Below, in pieces: positions 25,425 to 28,016 of a DNA stretch of 64,000 nucleotides (position 1 is its first letter; every line of letters starts with the position of its first letter). A program made the position numbers and the translations under genes. Location: positions 1,860,037-1,924,036 of the forward strand of contig NZ_LT706966.1 in assembly GCF_900155575.1 (NCBI RefSeq), in the 5' to 3' direction. The DNA comes from Actinotignum timonense. Its GTDB lineage: Bacteria; Actinomycetota; Actinomycetes; Actinomycetales; Actinomycetaceae. The notes below the pieces were generated by a model. It saw only the letters and a list, made by a program, of their open reading frames with translations, did no database searches and was not told where the DNA came from.

Positions 25425-26318
25425 TTAGGAAATCTCTGCCCGGCCAAAGAGGACTGGGAGCACTCCGCGCACCAGCGAGGCTAAATCGGTGCGGATGGAG
25501 GTGGGCCGGTAAATAATGCCATCTGCCGCGCCCATACCCAGCCAGGACTCGGTGGTATCCGCAACATCATATACGGTGCCAACCACGTGAGCACTGCGGG
25601 AGAAGTCTGGGCCGCCCAGGGCTTGGACAAGGAAGAGGCGCTCGCGGGCCGCGGTGCGGGTAGCCGAAATAATAACGGTCATATCGAGGAGAACCTGCAG
25701 GTCGGTATCGTATTCTTCCGCCGCCGTACGCAAAGCGAAACGGGCCTCGCGGGCACGGTGCGCATCCGGAGCGGAAAGGCGCATCATCGGAGAAATACCG
25801 CAGATCGCGCGCAGATTCAGATTCGGGACATCTTCGGCGCGCACGTGCGGCATGAGGCGCACCCCGGCCGCAATCGCATTTTCCACATCGCTGCGCAGGG
25901 CCGCGAGATCGGTAGCCGGGGTGATGGGCAGGCTCACCAGAGCCGGAGTATCAGAAGTATCTTGCTGGGTTCTGGCTACCGCTTCGCGCAGGGCCTGGGA
26001 GGTAGCAGGAACTTCCACCGCGATATCACCGCGGGCACGCGGCCCTAAGCGGCTTGCCGTTTCCATCGCGGAGGCGACCCGGGAGCCGGGAAGCACAAAT
26101 TCTCCGGAGAACTGGACGAAATCGAGTCCGCCTTTCCAGGCCGCATCAGCGCAGGAGGCCAGGTGGGCGATGGAAGCCCCGTGGGCTGGGCGCGTAGCTG
26201 CGCCGTCGCCGCACAGACTCTCCCCGCCGCCGAGCGCCGAGAGATCGACTCCTAAAAATGTTTCTCTTAAAACTTCCTCATTCGTGGTGGTGCACAGGGT
26301 GGTCAATTGGATGGTCAT
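25425..26318 (-). CDS. Divergent luciferase-like (LLM) fold protein
   Basis: A 297-residue protein that resembles flavin-dependent LLM monooxygenases in pattern but is shorter than the typical NtaA/SnaA members. Near the N-terminus 'AHGASIAHLASCADAAWKGGLDFVQFSGEF' corresponds to the LLM A(R)xAExxGFD strand. The C-terminal 'TVYDVADTTESWLGMGAADGIIYRPTSIRTDLASLVRGVLPVLFGRA' matches the ADGF..P...F..VVPxL ending. Conserved flavin-contact residues are not obvious, so the enzyme may be reduced or inactive. The ATG overlaps the stop of an upstream 54-residue gene (TAATG), which predicts translational coupling. No substrate can be inferred. Confidence 0.65.
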   Translation of the reverse strand: MTIQLTTLCTTTNEEVLRETFLGVDLSALGGGESLCGDGAATRPAHGASIAHLASCADAAWKGGLDFVQFSGEFVLPGSRVASAMETASRLGPRARGDIAVEVPATSQALREAVARTQQDTSDTPALVSLPITPATDLAALRSDVENAIAAGVRLMPHVRAEDVPNLNLRAICGISPMMRLSAPDAHRAREARFALRTAAEEYDTDLQVLLDMTVIISATRTAARERLFLVQALGGPDFSRSAHVVGTVYDVADTTESWLGMGAADGIIYRPTSIRTDLASLVRGVLPVLFGRAEIS

Positions 26319-26482
26319 TAGTACTCACTATCAGGACGAAGACGGGCAGAGGGGGCACTGGCCGGCGCAAGAAGGCGCGCGCTCATAAAGTGGTGATGCC
26401 AGCGGCGCCAATGCGCCTTGGTAATTCGATAGTCGGCAAGCATGCTAGAGGTGACATCCTGGAGCGTGACAAACTGCGACAT
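26318..26482 (-). CDS. 54-residue microprotein, translationally coupled to the LLM-like gene
   Basis: A short frame of 55 codons from ATG (26482-26480) to TAA (26320-26318). GGAG lies 6 nt upstream of the ATG, and the stop overlaps the next start as TAATG. The product begins MSQFVTLQDVTSSMLADYRITK and has a striking basic-aromatic patch 'HWRRWHHHF' at residues 24-32, then an Ala/Pro/Arg-rich tail. It has no membrane span and no recognised domain. It could be a small partner of the LLM-like protein or a leader peptide that sets downstream translation. Strong initiation and coupling signals support its being a real gene; homologues were not searched. Confidence 0.65.
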   Translation of the reverse strand: MSQFVTLQDVTSSMLADYRITKAHWRRWHHHFMSARLLAPASAPSARLRPDSEY

Positions 26483-26900
26483 CGAATTCTCCGTTCTTCG
26501 TCGGCTCGGGTAGTTCCGAGCGATTGCGAGGGTGCTATATAAGCACTTGCGATAACGCTAGATCTTTATTGTCCAATAGGCAAGACGAACACGACGGTTC
26601 TTTGCGCAAGTCACTATTCAATTATTCAGATTACTATTCGGTCATTGTGGTGTAATATTTCGCTAGCTTGTGTGCGAACAACGCTATGACCAGCGCAAAT
26701 AATAATCCCCGGCCGCGCCCGCCGTGAAACTTTATGCAGCTTCCACATAGTTACAGGTCCGTAAAGTAAGGCGAAACACAGAATTGCCCGCGCGTTGCGC
26801 GCGCCACCGGCTCGGCATTGAAGCACGCTCGCTGCCGAATGGACGCTTGTTGCGGAACACGCCCGCCCACTGCGCAAGGCACCCCGGCAGGAAAACCCCG
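26483..26900. other. AT-richer regulatory region upstream of the microprotein operon
   Basis: No gene is supported in these 418 bp. Towards the microprotein the region contains the palindrome GTGCT-ATATA-AGCAC (26532-26546), which overlaps a possible minus-strand TATATA -10. It also has TATTG-TC-CAATA (26567-26578). An AT-rich block holds three TATTC copies (26615, 26623, 26635), two of them within ACTATTC repeats starting 20 bp apart (26613-26619 and 26633-26639). The rest runs down to the proB stop without a clear terminator. Confidence 0.5.
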
Positions 26901-28016
26901 CTACGAACCCAGCAGCACGATATCGTTCGCGTGCACCACCGGCTTCTTTCCGCGCGCCCGGGTGCTACCGACCAGCTCAATGAGTTCCTCGACGCTGTAG
27001 GCACTCAGGCCCCGGGCGATAACCTCGCCGTGCCCATCGCATAATTCCACGATGTCCCCGGCAGCGAATCGGCCCGAGACCCCGATGACTCCCACCGGGA
27101 GGAGGGATGCGTGGTTGCCGGTGATGGCGGCAACGGCGCCGTCGTCCAAAGTAACCCGGCCGCGGGCCCGCGCCGCGAATTCCATCCAGCGCCCGCGCGC
27201 GGATACGTGCCTGGTGCTCGGCACGAACCAGGTTCCCACGTTTTCCCCGGCCACGGCGCGCTGCACATTATCGACATGGGTGAGAATCACGCCGACCCCG
27301 CCCGAAGTGGCTAACTCGGCAGCCGCTACTTTGGTGCGCATTCCCCCAGTTCCCACCGCTGAGCCGCGCCCGGTAATCCGCAGTCCTGCCAGGTCATCTT
27401 CGCTGGTCACCTCGGTAATGCGGGTGGCCCCCGGTTCACTCGGCGGTTTGGTGTACAGGCCGTCCACATCGGTGAGCAAAATAAGGGTGCCGGCCCCCAC
27501 CAGGTGGGCGGTGAGCGCGGCTAACCGGTCATTGTCACCGAAGCGCAATTCGTCGGTGGCCACGGCGTCGTTCTCATTAACAATCGGAACCACCCGTAAA
27601 CGTAAGAGCGTGCGCATGGCCGTGAGCGCATTGGCGTAGTGGCGCCGGTTGGTGACGTCGGAGGCGGTGAGGAGCACCTGGCCCACGCTGATGTCGTGCG
27701 CTTCGAAACGTTCTTCGTAGGCGGCCATGAGGCGGGACTGGCCCACCATGGCCGCGGCCTGCTTTTCCCGCAGGGAACGCGGGCGGCCCAGCTTGAGCGG
27801 GCCGATGCCGGCCGCCACCGCGCCGGAGGACACCAGTACCACGTCTACCCCGCGGGCGTGCATTTCCGCGATGGTATTAACAAGAAGATCGAGGGTTTCC
27901 TGGTGCAGGGCACCGTCCGGCCCGGTCAAGGAGGAGGAACCAACTTTGATGACTATTCGACGGGAGTTCTCAAGGCAGTCACGCCGGGTCAGCGGGGCGG
28001 ATGAGGTACCGGACAC
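26901..28016 (-). CDS. proB: Glutamate 5-kinase
   Basis: A 371-residue kinase that phosphorylates glutamate in the first step of proline synthesis. The amino acid kinase domain (~17-270) begins 'RIVIKVGSSSLTGPDG' and includes 'VLVSSGAVAAGIGPL' and 'VPIVNENDAVA..ELRFGDNDRLAA', which are typical. The C-terminal ~80 residues form a PUA domain, the place of proline feedback in long ProB forms. GTG at 28016 follows AAAGAG. The gene lies 45 bp after obg, the common obg-proB order, and is likely co-transcribed with it. Confidence 0.95.
   Translation of the reverse strand: MSGTSSAPLTRRDCLENSRRIVIKVGSSSLTGPDGALHQETLDLLVNTIAEMHARGVDVVLVSSGAVAAGIGPLKLGRPRSLREKQAAAMVGQSRLMAAYEERFEAHDISVGQVLLTASDVTNRRHYANALTAMRTLLRLRVVPIVNENDAVATDELRFGDNDRLAALTAHLVGAGTLILLTDVDGLYTKPPSEPGATRITEVTSEDDLAGLRITGRGSAVGTGGMRTKVAAAELATSGGVGVILTHVDNVQRAVAGENVGTWFVPSTRHVSARGRWMEFAARARGRVTLDDGAVAAITGNHASLLPVGVIGVSGRFAAGDIVELCDGHGEVIARGLSAYSVEELIELVGSTRARGKKPVVHANDIVLLGS

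Follow-up and report, generated by a model that had tools for sequence, protein, structure and literature searches.

In the 64,000-nucleotide stretch of Actinotignum timonense DNA that was analysed (the window), a predicted leader open reading frame (ORF) is located between proB and a gene for a divergent luciferase-like (LLM) protein (Table 1). Past the LLM gene lie a thioredoxin gene on the opposite strand and then proA. The ORF translates to MSQFVTLQDVTSSMLADYRITKAHWRRWHHHFMSARLLAPASAPSARLRPDSEY, followed by a stop codon. The initial annotation had named a GGAG Shine–Dalgarno (SD) sequence 6 nt before the ATG, a frame free of internal stops, a TAATG overlap with the next gene, and a basic-aromatic patch, HWRRWHHHF. 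All of these are present, and they belong to the minus strand, which had not been specified. Neither Pfam nor NCBIfam returned a match to the 54-residue peptide.

Table 1. Features of the leader–LLM locus, in order of transcription (positions in the window).
Feature	Position	Strand	Basis or remark
proB	26901..28016	-	Other side of leader ORF from LLM
Tentative promoter TTGCCT, 17 nt, TAGCGT	26555..26583	-	By-eye alignment with better promoters of relatives
Hairpin GCTCGG-AACTAC-CCGAGC, upstream of SD	26504..26521	-	Predicted fold
5′ arm GACGAAGA of stem enclosing leader ORF	26495..26502	-	Predicted fold, pair probabilities about 1
Leader SD, GGAG	26489..26492	-	6 nt from ATG (AACGGAGAATTCGATG); −6.6 kcal/mol with anti-SD core
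5′ arm AATTCGAT of stem burying leader start codon	26481..26488	-	Pair probabilities
Predicted leader ORF, 54 codons	26318..26482	-	Translation; frame intact in five genomes
Residues 1–35, putative core of ancestral leader	26378..26482	-	Inferred; FMSA end like that of many relatives (MSA, MSL or SMA before the stop)
3′ arm ATCGAATT of start-burying stem	26423..26430	-	Pair probabilities; CGAATT in place of the CGAATG (Arg-Met) of many relatives
Residues 36–54, putative lineage-specific extension reaching LLM start	26321..26377	-	Inferred
3′ arm TCTTCGTC of stem enclosing leader ORF	26335..26342	-	Predicted fold, pair probabilities
TAATG, leader stop and LLM start overlapping by one base	26316..26320	-	Identical in five genomes
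Divergent LLM-fold FMN monooxygenase-like gene, 297 aa	25425..26318	-	Profile matches, predicted structure

The LLM gene and the leader RNA

The LLM protein has no Pfam match. TIGR03860 aligns with residues 242–293 at 30.5 bits and does not reach its curated cut-off of 279.7 bits, and this weak C-terminal match is common to all 49 of 49 LLM homologues. Profile searches matched it with dimethyl-sulfide monooxygenase, DszA, and YtnJ, and the structure model (mean pLDDT 87) has BdsA and YtnJ as its best Foldseek matches; the earlier designation as a divergent luciferase-like protein is thus well supported. In other families, LLM has flavin reductase genes in its vicinity. Together with the SAM-IV riboswitches and the methionine/cysteine (Met/Cys) leaders described below, the TIGR03860-like matches and fold and these neighbors suggest that LLM is a putative two-component FMN monooxygenase for sulfur salvage. 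The ORF is not an N-terminus of LLM split off by a frameshift, a possibility ruled out by the MTIQL-type start that is conserved in most homologues.

The calculated ribosome-site energy is −6.6 kcal/mol for the leader SD versus −2.7 kcal/mol for the LLM start region, the latter being at the weak end among homologues. Coupling of translation through overlapping stop and start codons is well established. Both sequence signs of it are found here, i.e., the stop/start overlap and the lack of a strong ribosome site at LLM, and they point to translational coupling of the leader and LLM. An intrinsic terminator, as in a classical attenuator, was not found between the leader and LLM, whose ORFs overlap.

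The leader RNA has a predicted folding energy of −84.1 kcal/mol, compared with −64.5 kcal/mol in shuffles (z = −4.23). One stem would enclose the leader ORF and another would bury its start codon. Since the stems are invariant in five close genomes, they offer no covariation to count. Variable sites significantly avoid paired bases when the consensus fold is used (13/14), but that fold is biased; with the single-sequence fold, the avoidance is not significant (5/10, P = 0.33). An Rfam search of the 5′ region in the window gave a single chance-level match.

The tentative promoter was not reported by a consensus promoter scan. As a separate observation, a promoter- or operator-like motif, GTCTTGCCAT-TGGAC, occurs at 26571–26586 on the minus strand of the window and upstream of loci L007, L008, L010, L011, L012, L016, L023, L043, L045, and L069; in some loci, an upstream GTCCAC completes an inverted repeat.

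Leaders and riboswitches ahead of LLM homologues

LLM homologues are present in 73 of the 213 Actinomycetaceae genomes, and LLM profile matches, some covering the C-terminal part only, in 95 of the 297 genomes sampled across the order. SD-led leader ORFs with a median length of 29 codons often precede these genes, both in Actinomycetaceae and in other families of the order. Among the 64 family loci, 39 have an SD-led upstream ORF (uORF), versus 19.8 in shuffles, and 18 have a uORF with at least three Cys/Met in 14 residues, versus 3.5 in shuffles. The other 25 loci have no leader by the criteria used, although at some of these (e.g., L024 and L073) a leader is present that escaped the SD rule.

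Met and Cys codons are packed before the stop of such leaders, which end, for example, in RRSMCMCMCRPGMSL, CMMCRCSMSA, or RRMRMWHKSMA; further examples are MNTHQGPGQNVFSPRRSMCMCMCRPGMSL, MIQDRTPVFTRPARPALRFAACMMCRCSMSA, MAFTNIVETTGLRVSAPFLLRRMRMWHKSMA, and MMFSHTSMASSMCCLVFSSRMRMCK. In 43 leaders chosen by eye, for which residue percentages are descriptive, the last 14 residues comprise 15% Cys and 18% Met (33%), compared with 1% and 2% (3%) in the remainder. A Met lies within the last five residues in 33 of the 43, and Met-Ser-Ala, Met-Ser-Leu, or Ser-Met-Ala immediately before the stop are common ends. CGAATG, encoding Arg-Met, occurs in 27 of the 64 upstream regions versus 1.6 expected; Actinotignum has CGAATT (Arg-Ile). 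An NCBIfam search with ten leaders gave no match. In three genus groups of other genera, the pooled leader pN/pS is about 0.7–0.9, a weak constraint only, as expected of a regulatory leader.

BLAST of the Actinotignum peptide found no relatives outside five Actinotignum genomes, and the peptide could not be aligned with the other leaders; what links it to them is position, size, SD, and short motifs. A peptide that is not conserved where LLM is retained had been named initially as a refuting condition. The outcome is mixed: the sequence is not conserved beyond those five genomes, but a leader ORF in the same position does recur.

A SAM-IV riboswitch (RF00634) lies ahead of the leader and LLM in several genera of Actinomycetaceae and, outside that family, at 19 of 20 loci. 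Among loci with SAM-IV ahead of LLM, 20 of 27 have a leader with at least four Cys/Met in its last 16 residues, versus 0.0 in shuffles, and the leader ATG lies 53–73 nt past the SAM-IV core. At four other SAM-IV loci of the same genomes there is no leader, and the ATG of the main gene, which is aminotransferase- or cysteine desulfurase-like as judged by eye, lies 67–71 nt past the aptamer core, a place taken by the leader ATG at LLM loci. No SAM-IV at or above the gathering score was found in window positions 26200–26900, in the genome of the window, or in the two genus mates searched. The succession of SAM-IV, Met/Cys-rich leader, and divergent FMN monooxygenase is seen in several families of the order (loci L085–L103, L022–L030, L069, and L070).

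Other elements recur in these regions. A hairpin with a CACGA loop and a varying stem (CCCGTCACGAGCGGG, TCCGCCACGAGCGGA, GTTACCACGAGTAAC) lies upstream of the leader or LLM at L007, L011, L012, L043, L045, L052, and L018; it recurs in genera without SAM-IV, with no Rfam match among those searched. Between the leader stop and LLM, two related genera (L024, L026, L027, L030, L073–L077, L079, L080, L083, and L084) carry a highly conserved hairpin-like element (GCGATGCCCCGGCGC ... GCGCCGACGCATCACCCCTGA). The string GCATCACC, common to the His codons of Actinotignum and the post-leader element of related genera, is found at 15 of the 64 loci. This is probably a coincidence, since the other 14 loci belong to a few related genera and carry it elsewhere with respect to the leader.

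Conservation within Actinotignum and the role of the ORF

The peptide is intact in five of the six Actinotignum genomes, namely the window's own, one with 100% identity, and three with 93%, and its frame contains no indels and no stops. A. schaalii and A. sanguinis are named genome records whose LLM is 98% identical to that of the window. In all five carriers the peptide precedes LLM, a point that the initial annotation had suggested checking; the sixth genus member (G001) has an LLM of only 43% identity and no such peptide. The leader of G001 is another one, MRLIARTMVCCNSMSSKGMHLSFGHCPWLHNSETA, which is rich in Cys/Met, has 35 aa, and ends at −32 without an overlap.

The five genomes form two clades: clade A, comprising the window and its nearest relative, and clade B, comprising the three others. 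No stretch of the neighborhood is more conserved than that from about −300 to +90 around the LLM start. When the window is compared with its nearest relative, this stretch has no changes, versus a pS of 0.17 in LLM codons 31–297. Between clades A and B, pS is 0.14–0.19 in the leader compared with 0.38–0.40 in LLM codons 31–297, and identity is 84–98% in the ORF and 5′UTR compared with 48–74% in the intergenic DNA from −600 to −350. From clade A to clade B, the amino acid changes are Asp9Gly, Val10Leu, Leu15Cys, and Lys22Met, all within residues 9–22. The low leader pS relative to that of LLM indicates that the constraint acts on nucleotides. Judged by these comparisons, including the contrast of synonymous with non-synonymous change that had been suggested as a check, selection bears more on the nucleotides than on a protein, in the manner of a regulatory leader.

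These data bear directly on the idea of a functional small protein acting in trans, e.g., in partnership with the LLM enzyme, with TAATG keeping both in step. The intact frame in five genomes, the absence of amino acid changes in residues 23–54 between the clades, the basic-aromatic patch, and the overlap with LLM all agree with it. However, the conservation is explained by constraint on nucleotides, as synonymous sites have changed little too; the changes cluster in residues 9–22; and the peptide has no family match and no relative in other genera, which have Met/Cys leaders instead. A small protein of this kind is unlikely. Of the three possibilities raised initially, namely a leader peptide, an assembly partner, or a new small protein family, the first gains support from the SD-led Met/Cys ORFs at the same place across the order, whereas the other two find no support, with no Pfam or NCBIfam match and a leader pN that is not far below pS in other genera.

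Nucleotide constraint would also be produced by an RNA or DNA control element, such as a protein-binding RNA, a new type of riboswitch, or an operator, within which the ORF is incidental. The hyper-conserved non-coding DNA upstream of the ORF, the strong predicted fold, and the constrained synonymous sites fit such an element, but the SD, the 54 open codons, and TAATG are all kept in five genomes, leader ORFs occupy the same place in relatives, and the LLM ribosome site is poor. An element with an incidental ORF is improbable.

A His- or Trp-sensing attenuator is suggested by the four His and two Trp codons that are clustered in HWRRWHHHF, unchanged in both clades, and by one other genus that also has His-rich leaders. 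Yet His and Trp make up only 3.7% and 2.4% of the last 14 residues of the 43 leaders, versus the 33% of Cys and Met, the downstream gene is neither a His nor a Trp gene, and a terminator is missing between the leader and LLM. His-rich leaders, with several His in that one genus, are no general feature of the homologous leaders; the reading of HWRRWHHHF as a His leader was rejected, and attenuation by His or Trp appears very unlikely. A chance ORF, for which its shortness and the absence of the peptide from other genera could speak, is largely refuted by conservation and hardly credible: the frame, SD, and overlap survive a neighboring divergence of pS about 0.38, and a frame that is kept while intergenic DNA diverges indicates more than chance.

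The ORF is more plausibly a cis-acting regulatory leader (uORF) of LLM, and a likely derived member of the order-wide set of Met/Cys-rich leaders. Ribosomes would load at the leader SD and unfold the folded domain while translating; after termination at TAATG they would reinitiate on LLM, so that LLM output would follow leader translation. The simplest reading of the locus is that LLM is translated by ribosomes reinitiating once they have finished the leader. The peptide itself probably serves no separate function.

In relatives, ribosomes slowed by Met/Cys codons close to the leader stop would report a shortage of sulfur amino acids, and in many of them the SAM-IV riboswitch would act ahead of the leader. 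Actinotignum lacks this riboswitch; its Met/Cys run appears to have decayed and the usual stop to have been lost, joining the leader to LLM through a 19-codon run-on. Indeed, HHHFMSA forms residues 29–35, near the usual leader length, with 19 further codons to the LLM start, and HWRRWHHHF would fall in the former sensing segment. In the window clade, Met14 and Met33 are the only Met of the leader and Cys is missing, without a run of such codons shortly before the stop; the sister clade additionally has Cys15 and Met22. Stop loss and decay are a proposed step, since BLAST does not align the peptide with other leaders. Sensing of Met/Cys in the window clade is doubtful, given a leader without Cys.

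As a broader and more tentative proposal, the order may share a tandem unit in which SAM-IV governs a Met/Cys leader and the leader governs a sulfur-salvage FMN monooxygenase, thereby reading both SAM and charged Met/Cys tRNA. The unit would have been rebuilt in Actinotignum, with the riboswitch missing, the sensing codons mostly gone, the ORFs joined by stop loss, and control exerted by a folded domain. The order-wide arrangement of SAM-IV, Met/Cys leader, and LLM is a more interesting result than the Actinotignum ORF. An overlooked ORF becomes a testable regulatory case, and the series of states, from riboswitch with Met/Cys leader, through leader alone, to a leader overlapping its gene, would show how a leader peptide can lose its sensing codons and nevertheless be kept. 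The mode of regulation also suggests a role in sulfur salvage for this enzyme, which otherwise has no name.

Comparison with known systems

The ORF had been ranked initially as the best candidate in the window for an undescribed system. Met/Cys leaders are already known, and the Actinotignum ORF is not an undescribed protein system; its position and the Met/Cys leaders of relatives suggest that it is an altered copy of a known leader type. For the combination of SAM-IV, Met/Cys leader, and LLM, or for the overlapping Actinotignum form, no description was found in searches of open-licence literature.

The LLM enzyme resembles the NtaA/DmoA family (TIGR03860: DmoA, BdsA/DszA, YtnJ/CmoJ) in its C-terminal sequence match and in its fold. 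However, members of that family have about 440–450 aa, compared with 297 aa for the LLM protein of the window, which scores far below the family cut-off. SAM-IV (RF00634) precedes the leader and LLM in many relatives, but is absent from the genome of the window and the two genus mates tested.

Cysteine leader ORFs lie upstream of sulfur genes in mycobacteria and other actinobacteria (PMC1262725; Canestrari 2020, as cited in PMC13236596 and PMC9094748). They share with the present leaders a short ORF, regulatory sulfur amino acid codons near the stop, and no clear terminator. They differ in having runs of Cys and in being leaderless in mycobacteria, whereas the leaders of LLM relatives mix Met and Cys and that of the window has nearly none.

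The closest published peptide is MetL of Streptomyces lividans TK24 (MSTTSDRTPATEATTTPGARCMCRRMCAF), a 29 aa leader upstream of metNIQ with CMCRRMC near its stop (PMC8079986). With its CMCRRMCAF, it is very like the leaders preceding LLM homologues, although metL has a leaderless transcript and precedes an importer (PMC8079986). In contrast to metL, the Actinotignum ORF has an SD, encodes 54 aa, overlaps the gene that follows, and has lost most of its Met/Cys codons.
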